A stretch of DNA of 41,848 nt from a bacterium (GTDB taxonomy: Bacteria; SZUA-79; Acidulodesulfobacterales; Acidulodesulfobacteraceae). Position 1 is the stretch's first letter, and each line of letters begins with the position of its first letter. The notes below the pieces were generated by a model. That model was given only the letters and a program-made list of their open reading frames with translations. It had not been told where the DNA came from and searched no databases. Below are positions 6,878 through 36,706 of this stretch, piece after piece. A program made the position numbers and the translations under genes. The stretch covers positions 1-41,848 of the forward strand of contig JAJYRF010000011.1 of assembly GCA_021794255.1 (NCBI GenBank), read 5' to 3'.

Positions 6878-7438
6878 TTATTTTGAAGCAGGTACAAAAT
6901 GGTCTCTTCTGTTCATAGCGTAACAAACTCTTGTATGAGCATTGCATAAAGGTTTTTCTTTGCCAAAGCTTATTGTTTTAAGTCTGCCTGAATTTATGCC
7001 AAGGTCTTGTAAATATGCTTTTGCAGCATTTGCTCTTCTCCAACCTAGTGCCAGATTATAGCTTTCCGAACCTCTTCTATCGCAATTACCCTGAATTTGG
7101 ACAGCCGTATTTCTATGATATTTTAAATATATTGCATCTTTTCTTAAAATCATCTTGTCAAGAGGGGTAAGAATAGATTTGTTAAATGCAAAATGGATAT
7201 TGTTGTTGTTTGATTGAATATTGTAAGATGCAAGCCATGGATACTTTCTTAAATAAGGATTTACTTTTTTAGTGATTACGGGTTGCGTCGGCTGCTGAAC
7301 TGCAACTGCCGGTTTTTTTGCAGGTGGCAAAGCGCTTGAAGATACTTTTGTTATTTTTGGAGCGCAGCCCGAAAGAACTGCGGATACTCCAAAAACCAAT
7401 CCAAGAATAGATAATCCTATCTTTGTTTTTTTGTTCAT
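6878..7438 (-). CDS. pal: peptidoglycan-associated lipoprotein Pal (OmpA-C domain)
   Basis: An outer-membrane lipoprotein that binds peptidoglycan and works with the Tol system. The N-terminus is a signal peptide ending in lipobox LSGC (acylated C25). The residue after Cys is Ala, not Asp, consistent with outer-membrane sorting. A Pro/Lys-rich linker follows, then the OmpA-like domain: NIHFAFNKSILTPLDKMIL, IQGNCDRRGSESYNLALGWRRANAAKAYL and the end block around FGKEKPLC. The GNCDRRGS segment matches Pal's G-x-CDERGT peptidoglycan-binding loop. A clear AAGGAG lies just upstream of the ATG. tolB and other tol genes are not in this window. At 186 aa the length is normal. Confidence 0.94.
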   Translation of the reverse strand: MNKKTKIGLSILGLVFGVSAVLSGCAPKITKVSSSALPPAKKPAVAVQQPTQPVITKKVNPYLRKYPWLASYNIQSNNNNIHFAFNKSILTPLDKMILRKDAIYLKYHRNTAVQIQGNCDRRGSESYNLALGWRRANAAKAYLQDLGINSGRLKTISFGKEKPLCNAHTRVCYAMNRRDHFVPASK

Positions 7439-8007: not shown

Positions 8008-8076
8008 CTTAAATCACCGTTAGAAACTATTAAAATTGTTTTAACATAAAAAATAAATTTATAATGGTGATTTAAG
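8008..8076 (+). promoter_or_regulatory. structured 5' leader (long inverted repeat) of the peptide gene
   Basis: CTTAAATCACC at 8008-8018 is exactly complementary to GGTGATTTAAG at 8066-8076. The pairing continues inward through a G-U and three A-U pairs, giving 15 pairs around a 39-base loop. The loop contains a smaller nested inverted repeat (TTAAAA/TTTTAA, about 8029-8043). It lies 24 bases before the Shine-Dalgarno, so it could be a leader RNA structure or an operator. It does not resemble a riboswitch class I know. Confidence 0.55.
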
Positions 8077-8100: not shown

Positions 8101-8109
8101 AAGGAGGTG
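8101..8109 (+). promoter_or_regulatory. near-perfect Shine-Dalgarno of the peptide gene
   Basis: AAGGAGGTG sits seven bases before the ATG at 8117. It is the strongest ribosome binding site in the window, where most genes have weak or no visible Shine-Dalgarno. It fixes the start of the small open frame. Confidence 0.85.
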
Positions 8110-8116
8110 CAAAAAC

Positions 8117-8221
8117 ATGAAAATCAGTTACGAAAAACCCATATTGGAAAGTTTAGATGCTGAAGAATTTTACTTAAATCTAATGGAAAATTACGGAATT
8201 AAAGATTCGTGTTATTCTTGA
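8117..8221 (+). CDS. small peptide gene, RiPP-precursor-like; stop TGA may encode selenocysteine
   Basis: A 34-codon frame starts MKISYEKPILESLDAEEF and ends GIKDSCYS before TGA (8219-8221). Seen: a very strong Shine-Dalgarno, an upstream promoter-like pair, a structured leader and a strong terminator after it, so it looks like its own transcription unit. The N-terminal YEKPIL fits the YxxPxL pattern found in leaders of lasso peptides and some other ribosomally made, modified peptides. The C-terminus is short and Cys-containing. No modification enzyme lies next to it. If TGA is read as Sec the frame continues KSCK, a second TGA, then NVQLAHKN and TAA at 8261, giving an SCYSU/KSCKU arrangement of alternating Cys and potential Sec. 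The genome clearly uses Sec (SelA, SelD with Sec). I do not recognise the family. Translation of the 34-aa form is likely; the Sec extension is a hypothesis. Confidence 0.6.
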   Translation: MKISYEKPILESLDAEEFYLNLMENYGIKDSCYS

Positions 8222-8237
8222 AAATCCTGCAAGTGAA

Positions 8238-8254
8238 ATGTGCAGTTGGCACAT
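8238..8254 (+). promoter_or_regulatory. candidate bacterial SECIS-like hairpin
   Basis: ATGTGC at 8238-8243 pairs perfectly with GCACAT at 8249-8254 around the loop AGTTG. The loop begins 22 bases after the TGA at 8219-8221 and has a G in its first two bases. Both features fit the loose bacterial SECIS pattern of a short hairpin just downstream of the Sec codon. A competing stem, CTGCA/TGCAG (8227-8231 with 8241-8245), is possible. It could be chance or part of the 3' structure. Confidence 0.35.
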
Positions 8255-8256
8255 AA

Positions 8257-8310
8257 AAATTAAGCGTCTTATTCTTTGAATAGTATAACTAAAGAAAAGA
8301 CGCTTAATTT
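8257..8310 (+). terminator. strong rho-independent terminator after the peptide gene
   Basis: AAATTAAGCGTCTT (8257-8270) and AAGACGCTTAATTT (8297-8310) form a perfect 14-pair stem. After a single bulged A, six more inner pairs form (TTCTTT/AAAGAA), leaving a 13-base loop. T-rich sequence follows (attttgttatatttttt). The TAA that would end the read-through frame (8261-8263) lies inside the left arm. Confidence 0.88.
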
Positions 8311-8415: not shown

Positions 8416-9195
8416 TTATATTGTTTTATTAATTATTTTTTTTAAATCTTTTATATCTTTTCTTGCATTAATTTCAAAATTATTGTCAATATTAATATTA
8501 TTTTTTATAATTATTTCGTCAAGAGCAATTTTATATTTATTATTAACAGCTATATCTATAAGCATATCACAGAATTGAAAATTTTTAGGTAAAATACTTC
8601 CATGCGCATATGTACCGTAAAAATTATTAGAAATTGCTCCCTCGGTTTTATCTATTCCGTTATTGCCAAACCCAAACAGAACTTTTCCAAAGTTTTGTTG
8701 TGATTCGGATAAATATGTTCTTCCTCCATGATTTTCAAATCCCACAATTATAATATCTTTGAAAACTGAAGCAATATTTCCTGTCAATCTGGGTTTTTCA
8801 GGTTCCGCTGCCGTATACCCGTCAAAAATAGAAATACCTTCGATTATTTTATCATCTAAAGTTTTATAATAATTAAGTAAAAGCTGGTAGCCTCCGCAGA
8901 TTGCAAGCATTATTTTACCTGTATCTTTAGCATCTTTAAGCATATTTTTTTTGTTAGCTATAAAATCTTGATAAATCAAAGCTTGTTCGGAATCTTGTCC
9001 GCCTCCTATAAACATAATATCGGTCTTATTTATATCAATTTTGCCACCTATAGAACATGGCTTGATATCCACGCTTATTCCGTATAATGAAGCTCTATAT
9101 TTAAAATAAAGAATATTCCCTCTATCTCCGTAAATATTCATTATTTCGGGATAAAGATCAATAGCGTTCAGATTTAGCTTTAAGTTATAATTCAT
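8416..9195 (-). CDS. gatD: GatD-type glutamine amidotransferase subunit of lipid II isoglutaminyl synthase
   Basis: A class I (CobB/CobQ-like) glutaminase that supplies ammonia to MurT, amidating the alpha-carboxyl of D-glutamate in lipid II. Landmarks: DLYPEIMNIYGDRGN at the start, GGGQDSEQ, the nucleophile in MLAICGGYQLL (C100), GFENHGGRTYL, and the catalytic His in YGTYAHGSILPKN (H198). The overall layout is that of GatD rather than cobyric acid synthase (no ATP-grasp or dethiobiotin-synthetase domain, 259 aa). The partner murT is at 14701 on the other strand. In Gram-positives the two normally form one operon. Confidence 0.88.
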   Translation of the reverse strand: MNYNLKLNLNAIDLYPEIMNIYGDRGNILYFKYRASLYGISVDIKPCSIGGKIDINKTDIMFIGGGQDSEQALIYQDFIANKKNMLKDAKDTGKIMLAICGGYQLLLNYYKTLDDKIIEGISIFDGYTAAEPEKPRLTGNIASVFKDIIIVGFENHGGRTYLSESQQNFGKVLFGFGNNGIDKTEGAISNNFYGTYAHGSILPKNFQFCDMLIDIAVNNKYKIALDEIIIKNNINIDNNFEINARKDIKDLKKIINKTI

Positions 9196-17698: not shown

Positions 17699-19153
17699 AT
17701 GTATAGTTTAAATGAATATTTAAGAAAATTTCCTAAAATTCAATTAATTTTGCAAGATAGCGATGTTATAAAATTAATTGGTGAATATTCATATAATGCC
17801 GTAAAAAATAAATTGGATGAAATATTATCCGAAGAAAAAGAAAAAATAAAAATAAATTTGCAAAACAACAAAATACCTCAAGATAATATTTTTGAGATAA
17901 AACATTTTTTATTCTTGTTGCAAGAATATTTTGACAATTTTTCATTTAGCCTTAAAAGAGTTATTAACGGGACAGGGGTTGTTATTCATACTAATCTCGG
18001 AAGATCTATTTTGTCTAAAGCCGCAGTTGAAAATGTTTATAAAGTAGCTTCTTCATATTCAAATCTTGAATTTAATCTTGAAGAAGGAAAAAGAGGAAAA
18101 AGATATTCGCATATTGAAATATTACTTAATAAAATTTTAAATTGTGAAGCCGCTCTTGTGGTTAATAATAATGCTGCCGCTGTTTTTATGGCGCTAAATA
18201 CTTTTGTCGCAGGAATTAAAAAAGAAGTTATAGTTTCAAGAGGAGAGCTTGTTGAAATAGGCGGGTCTTTTAGAATTCCGGATATAATGAAAGCGTCGGG
18301 AGCGCGGCTTATTGAAGTTGGAACTACCAATAAAACTAAAATTAATGATTATGAATCAGAAATAAATGAAAATACTGCATTATTACTTAAAGTTCATCAT
18401 AGTAATTTTAAAATGACCGGATTTGTCCATGAAGTCAATTCCAGAGAACTTGTAGAAATTGGAGAAAAATATAATGTTCCTGTAATGGAAGACCTTGGTT
18501 CGGGAAGTTTTATTAAATTAGAAAAATTTGGTTTTCCAAAAGAACCTACTGCTCAGGAGGTTGTTAATACAGGAATTGACATAGTGACGTTCAGCGGAGA
18601 CAAGCTTCTTGGAGGACCGCAGGCAGGTATTATAGCAGGTAAAAAAAAATATATTGATTTGATTGCAAAAAACCCGCTAAACAGAGCTTTTAGAATTGAC
18701 AAGATGACTTTGGCGGCGCTTGAAGCAGTTTTATTTGAATATTTAGATATAAATAATGCTATTAAAAATATACCTACCATTTGTTTGCTTTCCCAAAATA
18801 TTTCAGAAATAAAAAAAAGAGGCTTTAAACTTTTAAATAAAATTAAAAAACTTGAACATATTTGTAAAACTATGTATAATTTTAATATTAATATCGTAGA
18901 AGATTTTAGTATCGTAGGGGGCGGAGCAATGCCCGATTATAAGCTTAAAACATACTGTTTAAGCATTACTAATAAAATTTTTGAAACAGAAAAATTAAGC
19001 GAAATTTTTAGGAGTATGCAGATTCCTATTGTCGGAAAAATTAAAGAAGATAAATTTTTGATTGATTTAAGGACGGTTTTAGATATTGATGTAGATGATA
19101 TAGTAGATAATTTCAAAAAAGTTTCTCAAATAGCTATTAAAGAAACTAATTAG
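17699..19153 (+). CDS. selA: L-seryl-tRNA(Sec) selenium transferase SelA
   Basis: A PLP enzyme that converts Ser-tRNA(Sec) to Sec-tRNA(Sec) using selenophosphate, the product of SelD. Landmarks: RVINGTGVVIHTNLGRS, VNNNAAAVFMALN, VSRGELVEIGGSFRIPDIM, VGTTNKTKINDYE, MEDLGSGSFI, and the PLP lysine in TFSGDKLLGGPQAG (K302). At 484 aa it is normal length. Its presence shows that bacterial-type Sec decoding operates; selB and the Sec tRNA must lie elsewhere. selD is 4 kb downstream on the same strand. Confidence 0.97.
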   Translation: MYSLNEYLRKFPKIQLILQDSDVIKLIGEYSYNAVKNKLDEILSEEKEKIKINLQNNKIPQDNIFEIKHFLFLLQEYFDNFSFSLKRVINGTGVVIHTNLGRSILSKAAVENVYKVASSYSNLEFNLEEGKRGKRYSHIEILLNKILNCEAALVVNNNAAAVFMALNTFVAGIKKEVIVSRGELVEIGGSFRIPDIMKASGARLIEVGTTNKTKINDYESEINENTALLLKVHHSNFKMTGFVHEVNSRELVEIGEKYNVPVMEDLGSGSFIKLEKFGFPKEPTAQEVVNTGIDIVTFSGDKLLGGPQAGIIAGKKKYIDLIAKNPLNRAFRIDKMTLAALEAVLFEYLDINNAIKNIPTICLLSQNISEIKKRGFKLLNKIKKLEHICKTMYNFNINIVEDFSIVGGGAMPDYKLKTYCLSITNKIFETEKLSEIFRSMQIPIVGKIKEDKFLIDLRTVLDIDVDDIVDNFKKVSQIAIKETN

Positions 19154-23204: not shown

Positions 23205-24266
23205 ATGACAAATAAAAAATATAAATTAACTTCTATGACATCGGCTCACGGCTGAGGGTGTAAGCTGGGTCCGGAGGACCTTTCTTCAATAATTGATGAT
23301 TTGCCTATTCTGCCAAATGAAAATGTTCTTGTAGGTTTTGGTTATAAAGACGATGCAGGTGTATATAAAATATCGGATGATAAATGTCTCATTCAGACGG
23401 TAGATTTTTTTACGCCTGTTGCAGACGACCCTTATGTTTTCGGGCAAATAGCAGCAGCTAATGCTTTGTCGGATGTTTACGCTATGGGCGGGCAGCCTAT
23501 CACCGTTTTAAATATTGCATGCTTTCCTATAGATAAAATTGAAAAAGATGTTTTTAGAGAAATATTGCTTGGAGGACTGAATAAAATAAACGAATCCGGC
23601 GCTGTGCTGCTTGGCGGACATTCAATTGACGATAAAGAGCTAAAATACGGTTTAAGCGTCACAGGAATTTGTAAAATAGATGAGATATATTCCAACAAAG
23701 GAGCTATGCCCGGCGATGTTTTATATTTGACAAAAAAATTAGGAACAGGATTTATTGTAAGCGCTTTATGTACCGATTTTTTGCAGCAGTCTGTTTTAGA
23801 CGAAGCTATAAATTCTATGGCAAAATTAAATAAAATAGCGTCCGAATTAGCTGTTTCTTTAAAAGCAGTAAATGCTATGACGGATATTACAGGATTTGGA
23901 CTCGCGGGACATACATCTGAAATGATGATGGCAAACAAAACTTCTTGCGAATTACATCTTGAAAATATCCCTTTGATTAGCGGAAGTTTAGAATTGATAA
24001 ATAAAGGAATTAATCCATCAGGTACAAAACGAAACAGAAAGTTTTTTTCCCGATATGTGAATATTGCAGAAAATATTGACGAAAGTCTTGTATGGGCTGT
24101 TTTTGGAGCTGAAACATCCGGAGGGCTTTTAGTTTGCATTCCCGAAGAAAAAACATCCGATATTGAAAATTTATTTAAAAATGCAGGAGAACCTCTTTAT
24201 AAAATTGGGAAAATATTGGATAAAGCAGAAAATAAAACCGAACAAATAATTAACTTAATTAAATAA
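23205..24266 (+). CDS. selD: selenophosphate synthetase SelD containing selenocysteine (in-frame TGA at 23253-23255)
   Basis: SelD makes selenophosphate from selenide and ATP. Conventional gene calling would start after the TGA (TTG at 23301) and lose the active site. From the ATG at 23205 the reading is MTNKKYKLTSMTSAHG, then TGA, then GCKLGPEDLSS, in frame with the rest. The TGA is codon 17 and the catalytic Lys is K20, the same numbering as Cys17/Lys20 in E. coli SelD. The Gly-rich loop GFGYKDDAGVY, the Asp-rich FFTPVADDPYVFGQIAAANALSDVYAMGG blocks, and GGHSIDDKELKYGLSVTG and TDITGFGLAGH are intact. The total is 353 residues including Sec. A hairpin follows the TGA. The protein needs Sec decoding (SelA at 17699) for its own synthesis. 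Confidence 0.95.
23256..23281 (+). promoter_or_regulatory. SECIS hairpin of selD
   Basis: Directly after the Sec TGA, GGTCC (23268-23272) pairs with GGACC (23276-23280) around the loop GGA, with a possible outer G-U pair. The loop starts 17 bases after the TGA and begins with G, matching the general bacterial SECIS layout recognised by SelB. It lies inside the coding sequence, as usual in bacteria. Confidence 0.75.
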
Positions 24267-30536: not shown

Positions 30537-31862
30537 ATGAGCAAAGAAAATGCTTTTTTTTGGGGATGTACAATTCAGGCAAAATTTCCTTTTATGGAAA
30601 AAGCTACGCGCTTAGTATTAGATAAGTTAGAAATTAAATATAAAGATATAGATTCTTTCACATGCTGTCCTGAAAAATCTTTGGTGAAAAATATAGATGA
30701 AACTTTATTTGATTTAACGGCTATCAGGAATATTGCTCTTGCAGAAAATGAAAATATCAATATTATGTCGGTCTGCACAGGCTGTTACTCTAATCTTAAA
30801 CAGGCAAGAGCCAAAGTTATATCTAATCCCGATTACCAAAAAAATATAAATAAAAAACTTGATAAAATAGGATTAAATTTTTCAGGAAGCTCTTCCATTT
30901 TGCATTTAATAGAATATCTTCATGATGAAGTAGGCATCAATAGAATAAAAGCCAGCGTAAAATACCCTTTACGGGGCATAAATATTGCAATTCATTACGG
31001 ATGTCATCTTGTTAGGCCTTCCCATGCTATAAATTTTGACAGCCCTTTTGATCCTGTAAAATATGACAATATTTTAAAAGCGCTGGGAGCAACCGTCGTA
31101 AATTACAATAATAAAATGATGTGCTGCGGTCAGTCTTTAGACAGAGTAGATGAACATGAAAAAGCGCTGGTTATGACCAGAATTAAAATGGATGCTATTA
31201 AAGAGGTCTCAGTTGATGCGCTTACGACTGTATGTCCATCATGTTTTACTCAATTTGATACCAATCAATTTATGCTTATAAAAGAAGGTTCAAAATACGA
31301 TATACCTGTTATTACATTAGAAGAGCTTATGTGTTTTGCTTTCGGAATAGAAGGAACCGAAGAACTTATTGAAATGCATAAAGTAAAGGCAAAAAAATTT
31401 ATTGATAAATTTAATTTAACAAAGATATTTAAAGATTATTCGCTAATGTTTGATAAAGAATCTCTAGTTAGATGCTATGACTGTAAAGCTTGCATAAATG
31501 ATTGCCCTATGTCGTTAAATTTTACGTCGTACAACCCTCCTTTAATAATTAAAATGATATTAGATAACGATGTTGAACGCGCTATGTCCTCTAAAATTGT
31601 CTGGGAATGTTTGGAATGCCATACCTGTTCCGAACTTTGTCCTCAGAATTATAGCTGGGAAACGGTATTGACAACTTTAAAAAATATTGCTATAAAAAAT
31701 CATGTAAGTCCGCAAAAAGTAAAAAAAGCGGAAGAATTATTTTTTAAAACATTAAGATTAGGAGACCCTCAGGAAGGAGCAAGGAAAAAATTAGGACTTC
31801 CGCCTGTTAAAAAAAATATCGCGTCAGATTTTAAACAAATTTTAGATGAAAATATTTTGTAA
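30537..31862 (+). CDS. HdrB-HdrC fusion (heterodisulfide reductase-like Fe-S protein)
   Basis: A 441-residue electron-transfer protein. The N-terminal HdrB part has two complete CCG motifs: C11-x31-C43C44-x35-C80xxC83, and C156-x39-C196C197-x35-C233xxC236. These are the pattern for non-cubane [4Fe-4S] clusters. The C-terminal HdrC part has two ferredoxin motifs, CYDCKACINDCP (C313-C323) and CLECHTCSELCP (C358-C368). The order is B then C, opposite to methanogen HdrD (C-like then B-like). There are no membrane helices. The three genes downstream are parts of a split glutamate synthase, so it may deliver electrons to it. A link to sulfur or thiol metabolism via HdrA-type proteins is the alternative; no hdrA is in the window. 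Confidence 0.86.
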   Translation: MSKENAFFWGCTIQAKFPFMEKATRLVLDKLEIKYKDIDSFTCCPEKSLVKNIDETLFDLTAIRNIALAENENINIMSVCTGCYSNLKQARAKVISNPDYQKNINKKLDKIGLNFSGSSSILHLIEYLHDEVGINRIKASVKYPLRGINIAIHYGCHLVRPSHAINFDSPFDPVKYDNILKALGATVVNYNNKMMCCGQSLDRVDEHEKALVMTRIKMDAIKEVSVDALTTVCPSCFTQFDTNQFMLIKEGSKYDIPVITLEELMCFAFGIEGTEELIEMHKVKAKKFIDKFNLTKIFKDYSLMFDKESLVRCYDCKACINDCPMSLNFTSYNPPLIIKMILDNDVERAMSSKIVWECLECHTCSELCPQNYSWETVLTTLKNIAIKNHVSPQKVKKAEELFFKTLRLGDPQEGARKKLGLPPVKKNIASDFKQILDENIL

Positions 31863-31893
31863 AAAATTATCGGCAATTTTGAGATTGTATAAA

Positions 31894-36353: not shown

Positions 36354-36523
36354 CCTGTTTAAAGTAAAATAAAATTTATTTTAAAGAGAAAAACATATTA
36401 AGATTATAATATATAGTGTTATTTAAAGTATTTTCTTTCGCATAGGGTTTTTATAGTTTTCTAGTTTATTTTGATTTTATAGTTTATTTTAATAATATTA
36501 TAAGTGCATATTTTATTTTGTTT

Positions 36524-36706
36524 AACCCTGCGGTGTTCGATTGGATTATTAAAATTGACCCAACAGTTGGATAGATTGGGATTGTCCCTAATTTTCTCAA
36601 TGGAAACAAATTTAAATATTTGATTCCTAACGATGATTATTATATGATTACCACCTTATTTAAATAGGTCCAATTTTATCGTCCATTCGGCACATGTGGG
36701 GTTTTA
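36524..36706 (+). ncRNA. ssrS: 6S RNA (ssrS)
   Basis: 6S RNA mimics an open promoter and sequesters the sigma-70 holoenzyme. It sits between zapA and the 5-formyl-THF cyclo-ligase gene, the standard ssrS position. The ends form the closing stem: CCCTGCGGTGTTCG (36526-36539) against CGGCACATGTGGGG (36688-36701), with several G-U pairs. The next long helix is TGGATTATTAAAATTGACC (36542-36560) against GGTCCAATTTTATCGTCCA (36667-36685). An inner hairpin has GGGATTGTCCC (about 36578-36588), with single-stranded stretches on both sides as in the central bubble. The length, about 180, is typical. It is clearly richer in G/C than its surroundings. TTTT follows the 3' end. Exact ends are approximate. 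Confidence 0.85.

Follow-up and report, generated by a model that had tools for sequence, protein, structure and literature searches.

A probable selenocysteine-containing RiPP precursor accompanied by radical SAM/SPASM and PqqD-like genes in the phylum of Ca. Acididesulfobacter

The peptide gene and its surroundings

The window analyzed here is the whole stretch of 41,848 nucleotides from contig JAJYRF010000011.1. It carries a short plus-strand gene (Table 1) between two minus-strand genes, one for a Pal-like lipoprotein (6878-7438) on the 5' side and one for a GatD-like glutamine amidotransferase (8416-9195) on the 3' side. Both neighbours match Pfam over cut-off and NCBIfam below it. As the preliminary description of this DNA had it, the frame at 8117-8263 contains two TGA codons and a TAA, reading MKISYEKPILESLDAEEFYLNLMENYGIKDSCYS-TGA(8219)-KSCK-TGA(8234)-NVQLAHKN-TAA(8261). 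The Shine-Dalgarno site of the gene is strong, and a AGGAGGTG-like ribosome-binding site is found upstream of at least 30 of the 32 family members defined below. The TAA was also correctly placed within a terminator stem, since position 8261 falls inside a long inverted repeat (8257-8310) that folds into a terminator-like hairpin; a simple scan for terminators reported none between 7400 and 9000. Stop codon usage in the 37 window ORFs of at least 110 aa (29 TAA, 5 TGA and 2 TAG, with one ORF cut off) indicates that TGA is not generally reassigned in the window. Upstream of the peptide gene, at 8009-8075, we also observed a perfect 10-bp inverted repeat, TTAAATCACC / GGTGATTTAA, a pair for which no exact match is present in the four closest related loci (L001-L004) or in L049.

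The window encodes SelA and a Sec-containing SelD, as previously noticed, and both proteins score over the cut-offs of their models. The mechanical ORF list starts selD late, at 23301; the reading given in Table 1 passes through the TGA at 23253. Among 30 related genomes, selB is found over cut-off in 27 (controls 2/14) and tRNA-Sec in 25 (controls 5/14). Genomes with Sec-type peptides and no selB over cut-off are G011 and G020, and those with no tRNA-Sec over cut-off are G011, G013, G015 and G027; these absences may be assembly gaps.

Table 1. Positions of the peptide gene, its predicted recoding signals and the selenium genes in the window.
Feature	Position	Strand	Basis
Shine-Dalgarno site AAGGAGGTG	8101..8109	+	Sequence; similar site 5' of at least 30/32 members
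Predicted gene for the selenopeptide precursor (39 residues, Sec at position 35), ending with the TGA at 8234-8236	8117..8236	+	Frame and family comparison
UGA predicted to be read as selenocysteine, site 1	8219..8221	+	TGA in 24/32 members, Cys codon in 8/32
UGA predicted to act as stop codon, site 2	8234..8236	+	TGA/TAA/TAG 11/8/5 in 24 TGA members
Predicted bacterial SECIS hairpin AUGUGC-AGUUG-GCACAU	8238..8254	+	Fold, covariation, controls; stretch first read as NVQLAHKN
Long terminator-like hairpin 3' of the gene	8257..8310	+	Fold of 8219-8310
selA	17699..19153	+	TIGR00474 575.8 bits, cut-off 267.9
selD, in-frame UGA 23253 (Sec) with hairpin behind	23205..24266	+	TIGR00476 362.4 bits, cut-off 125; hairpin fold z-score only -0.29

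A peptide family across the phylum

A scan of genome contigs for the read-through frame returned five loci, four of them close (L001-L004, of which L002 bears the name Ca. Acididesulfobacter diazotrophicus) and a fifth, L005. When the single sequence was searched against the phylum to which Ca. Acididesulfobacter belongs, 28 of 30 genomes gave matches, one match being an unrelated 255-aa ORF in G019, and a profile search found the peptide in 27 of the 30 with 37 matches. After orientation and removal of identical copies, 32 distinct members remained, the window included. Five weak or degenerate matches of the 37 were left out (G013:C1:116617, G013:C66, G026:C44:173998, G028:C88 and G010:C24; two of these carry a TGA), as was the G015 copy, which is identical to that of G025. 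The G012 member L041 was kept among the TGA-containing members despite its broken leader start. Viral contigs were also searched and yielded no relative.

The aligned peptides share an invariant Y5 and an invariant AEEF at positions 15-18, a nearly invariant P8 and the core C32-x-x-[U/C]35-K-x-C38, in which the invariance of position 35 in our alignment is by construction because U was written as C in all TGA members. A peptide tree, built on few columns, needs three Sec/Cys changes, which may have run either way.

The Sphingobacteriia locus L005/L010, which reads CYSCKSCKCNV, was considered as a relative carrying Cys in place of both TGAs and rejected. The search pattern itself held those letters, the locus has no start codon 5' in frame, no maturase was matched in its genome (G005) at E 1e-50, and the NV that the locus shares with the true family belongs to SECIS RNA there.

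The first UGA is almost certainly read as selenocysteine

At the position of the first TGA (8219), 24 of the 32 members have TGA and 8 have a Cys codon (TGC or TGT). The four closest loci keep both TGAs, the KSCK and the tail, and all their changes between the first TGA and the TAA are synonymous. In every one of the 24 TGA members, the codons that follow are AAR, TCN or GAR, TGY and AAR; the K and C codons thus vary only between AAA and AAG and between TGC and TGT, and the second codon encodes Ser or Glu. The synonymous-only changes together with these K and C codons argue that the frame beyond the TGA is not maintained by chance. The eight Cys members continue in a similar way, with KSCK in five, KGCK in two and KSCT in one. 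Both conserved coding sequence past an in-frame UGA and homologues with Cys in its place (8/32), by which bacterial selenoproteins are recognized, are thus seen in this family.

We then considered the hairpin that had been noticed 22 bases past the first TGA, with a G in its loop. In the window it comprises 6 bp at 8238-8254 with the loop AGUUG, at a UGA-to-loop distance of 22 nt. All 24 TGA members have a counterpart, with a loop that starts AG[GU]U and an inner stem that starts 14-21 nt after the UGA. This strict hairpin is found in none of the 8 Cys members and behind none of 58 ordinary TGA stops, taken as controls from the ends of ORFs of at least 150 aa in the same loci as the peptides. 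The bacterial SECIS model in the part of PMC13188914 consulted has a stem of 4-16 bp, a loop of 3-9 nt with G in the first two loop positions, a distance of 16-37 nt from the UGA and an energy limit of -7.5 kcal/mol. With this general model and a limit of -5 kcal/mol, we recovered 24/24 TGA members, 1/8 Cys members and 0/58 control stops. For the window hairpin the folding energy is -7.1 kcal/mol against the published limit of -7.5 (z -2.82 over a 23-nt stretch, -0.79 over 38 nt); the published limit is reached by 8 of the 24 TGA members for the hairpin alone and by 13 for a 36-nt stretch.

Covariation is also seen among the 16 distinct hairpins when they are aligned on the loop. In 92.7% of cells the bases pair, and four of the six pairs have changed on both sides, which 5 of 500 shuffles reach. 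Covariation scores 0.383, where shuffles average 0.181 and 0/500 are as high; by another measure, the number of additional pair types, the hairpins do not exceed shuffles (140/500). Rfam has no family over the hairpin at gathering score.

The alternation of TGA and Cys codons (24/8) and the presence of a hairpin with compensatory changes in all 24 TGA members lead us to conclude from this comparison that the UGA at 8219 almost certainly encodes selenocysteine, as the preliminary description had proposed. A gene ending at the first TGA with a 34-residue product is how gene callers have it: among 23 family proteins in public sets, 16 stop at ...CYS, the position of the first TGA, while 6 are full-length Cys members and 1 apparently reads TGA as W. 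The K[S/E]CK that persists beyond the TGA in all 24 members, the reading on of the Cys members and the universal hairpin are all at odds with this shorter product, and we regard it as hardly credible; the case that would have spoken against recoding, conservation ending at SCYS, is not what the family displays. The public family protein P0017, from a 550-base contig, has both TGA positions read as W, apparently because its gene was called with a different genetic code.

The second UGA behaves as a stop codon

Selenocysteine had also been proposed for the second TGA (8234), giving two similar Cys/Sec blocks (SCYSU KSCKU) and a peptide that continues through NVQLAHKN to the TAA. The window and six genomes of its clade (G001, G002, G003, G004, G006 and G008) do keep both TGAs, and they keep the tail with a single K to M change in G008. 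Across the 24 TGA members, however, this site is TGA in 11, TAA in 8 and TAG in 5, and in the homologues with Cys at the first site it is TAA or TAG in 8 of 8. At the -5 kcal/mol limit, none of the 11 second TGAs is followed at a suitable distance by a SECIS-like hairpin, and the tail varies among clades, its DNA being that of the hairpin described above. A product with two selenocysteines is thus very improbable. Since members use any of the three stop codons here and lack a separate SECIS for the site, this comparison identifies the codon at 8234 as a stop, and the repeated Cys/Sec blocks and the NVQLAHKN tail fall away. By the same comparison the NVQLAHKN stretch is SECIS RNA and not protein, which places the SECIS of this family behind or across the stop codon and not within the coding part.

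The window peptide is therefore most likely MKISYEKPILESLDAEEFYLNLMENYGIKDSCYSUKSCK, a predicted product of 39 residues with one Sec.

A radical SAM/SPASM gene and a PqqD-like gene accompany the peptide in most relatives

The gene had been described as a solitary transcription unit. This holds in the window but not in most of its relatives. We clustered the ORFs around the peptides of the 27 genomes and the window and found that two partners recur at differing chromosomal sites: a radical SAM/SPASM protein of 338-349 aa and a PqqD-like protein of 86-99 aa. The PqqD-like gene lies directly 5' of the peptide in 18 of the 27 genomes, and in 17 of those the radical SAM gene precedes it. The other neighbours, annotated in part, may include an exporter or a protease. 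The radical SAM gene is present at E 1e-30 or better in 23 of the 30 genomes, among them 22 of the 27 that have a peptide. The PqqD-like gene is present in 22 of the 30. In both pairs scanned (n=2), the Pfam domains Radical_SAM, SPASM and PqqD (PF05402) score over cut-off. Plasmids were searched as well, with no maturase match at E 1e-30.

An alignment of 21 maturases (17 from the phylum, 4 from outside) has ten invariant cysteines, three in the CxxxCxxC motif and seven in the SPASM region. In 17 of 27 genomes a radical SAM/SPASM maturase is encoded in one operon with its precursor, a set to which the window does not belong, and the PqqD domain matches are those expected of a leader-binding protein, leader binding itself being predicted. 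The notion of a RiPP, first raised from the leader of one peptide, is thereby strengthened. The precursor is short, with a leader and a Cys/Sec core, and it comes with a PqqD-type protein and an enzyme of the radical SAM/SPASM kind; such components make up a RiPP system, suggesting that the peptide is a Sec-containing RiPP precursor.

In the nearest kin of the window, G001 and G002, the pair lies away from the peptide. We saw no peptide gene beside the relocated pair in either genome (the G001 contig ends about 600 bases past the pair), and so the pair presumably acts in trans on the peptide. G011 likewise has the pair away from the peptide, and in G030 the two genes of the pair are also apart from each other. 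A tblastn search of the window with the maturases and PqqD-like proteins returned nothing near the gene, the best match having E 0.005 at 31772-31888. In the window and in 12 of the 27 genomes, the peptide adjoins the Pal gene or has only the pair in between, an arrangement that vertical inheritance would produce.

Not every genome with a peptide has a maturase. At E 1e-30 none was found in G007, G009, G010, G023 and G024 (5/27), yet G009 and G010 carry Sec-type peptides. Short fragments of maturase genes occur at G010:C22, G010:C24 and G007:C55, some near contig ends; the finding of only such fragments suggests that the copies in G007 and G010 are decaying.

Two further arrangements were observed in passing. 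One contig of Ca. Acididesulfobacter (L071 5926-10452, G002:C33) carries a second radical SAM cluster. Its maturase has 342 aa and about 36% identity to the peptide-associated one, and the cluster also has a PqqD-like gene, a further radical SAM gene and an ORF of 27 residues, MSFMFDTINKPKYKVICRQCSSCHACR. At L042 7878-9582 and L044 10149-11502, genes for Cys-type peptides are flanked on one side by a DsrE-like gene (Pfam PF02635; N-terminus signal-like) and on the other by another gene of secreted appearance, which has LTxxQ-like motifs and no Pfam match and which we take to be Spy/CpxP-like. These neighbours are a hint of sulfur or metal handling.

Relation to known systems

Among the closest known systems is SbtA/SbtM, which likewise pairs a short Sec precursor with a radical SAM/SPASM maturase. 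Three phylum maturases align to residues 199-515 of the 516 of SbtM (TIGR04082) at 103-145 bits against a cut-off of 350. The SbtA core is SGUG with two Sec (PMC13188914, Table 1), whereas the phylum peptide has the core CYSUKSC with one, and unlike SbtA/SbtM the phylum system has a separate PqqD-like gene. The SbtA model TIGR04081 matched 0/22 peptides and 0/30 genomes, though no control matched in the genome scan either. The best reading is that the peptide family lies outside the SbtA/SbtM family.

NCBIfam models for ACGX (TIGR04340), SbtM, heme b synthase and others match these three maturases, all far below cut-off. The ACGX radical SAM/SPASM model is the best match for two of the three (141 and 150 bits); for the third it comes second with 121 bits, behind heme b synthase with 124, the TIGR04340 cut-off being 400. 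The phylum peptides have no ACGX repeat, a motif that we took from the name of the model. By sequence, the nearest solved structure is that of SkfB. Among the best 120 of 326 matches, maturase relatives outside the phylum, at 46-51% identity, carry the names Desulfitibacter, Omnitrophota, Aminicenantes and others.

The PQQ, mycofactocin and GeoRSP systems likewise combine a radical SAM/SPASM enzyme, a PqqD-type chaperone and a short precursor, and the mycofactocin, GeoRSP and PqqD models of NCBIfam match phylum proteins below cut-off. No PQQ, mycofactocin or GeoRSP precursor is known to carry Sec. Small bacterial selenoproteins such as KCU-star, the CC/Se motif proteins and others are short and have Sec near the end, and several have CxxU like the phylum peptide. 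With regard to the YxxPxL-type leader, the only lasso model with matches was NF033528, in 2 of 22 peptides at a best E of 0.17, which does not point to a lasso peptide.

A total of 119 families of prokaryotic selenoproteins is given in the review PMC13188914, and the selenobacteriocin TIGR04081 is among the rows of its Table 1; by the names, domain identifiers and motifs in that table, no family is recognizable as the phylum peptide. Among the top matches in the open-licence literature, no title naming such a peptide was found, and in the main text of the description of the order, as far as covered (PMC6776010), the terms 'seleno' and 'radical SAM' are absent.

A proposed role for the peptide and its partners

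The gene is, very probably, that of a 39-residue RiPP precursor with one Sec in a CxxUxxC core, partnered by the radical SAM/PqqD-like pair. The preliminary description is thus supported in reading the first TGA as Sec, in proposing a RiPP and in expecting Cys homologues; it is not supported for the Sec at the second TGA and the tail.

The PqqD-like protein would bind the conserved leader (Y-x-x-P ... AEEF) and deliver the SCYSUKSCK core to its radical SAM partner. By analogy with related systems, this enzyme may modify the Cys and Sec of the CxxUxxC motif, with a thio- or selenoether cross-link or a heterocycle as the perhaps resulting modification. In the lineage of the window, the peptide would have become separated from the enzyme pair, which would then work in trans.

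Alternatively, the product could be a small redox selenopeptide that stays unmodified, the radical SAM and PqqD-like genes serving another substrate. The five peptide genomes that lack the maturase fit this account, as do the distance between peptide and maturase in G001, G002, G011 and G030 and the empty surroundings in the window. It sits poorly with a PqqD-like gene immediately 5' of the peptide in 18 of 27 genomes, with the single family member in G002, where none is seen beside the relocated pair, and with the invariance of the leader residues Y5 and AEEF. We consider an unmodified product unlikely, and keep to the modified RiPP in what follows.

Its near-universal presence in the phylum and the chromosomal site shared by many genomes suggest, with less confidence, that the product may be a housekeeping peptide for redox, metal or sulfur handling and not an antibiotic. 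It is possible, though we lean against it, that this sulfur and iron phylum of acid mines has a near-universal housekeeping seleno-RiPP in which selenium is part of a radical SAM-made structure, acting as a small redox or sulfur/metal cofactor in the manner of PQQ and mycofactocin.

If the modified RiPP is correct, the family would be the second of Sec-containing RiPP precursors, beside the selenobacteriocin SbtA, the only other one in the sources covered. It is present in 27 of 30 phylum genomes and is mostly clipped at the UGA in public protein sets. Its members also carry nearly the same core with either Sec or Cys, and these natural pairs would allow a direct test of what selenium contributes to a peptide modified by a radical SAM enzyme.

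Elsewhere in the window, a 6S RNA is found at 36522-36706 (Rfam RF00013, 53.5 bits).
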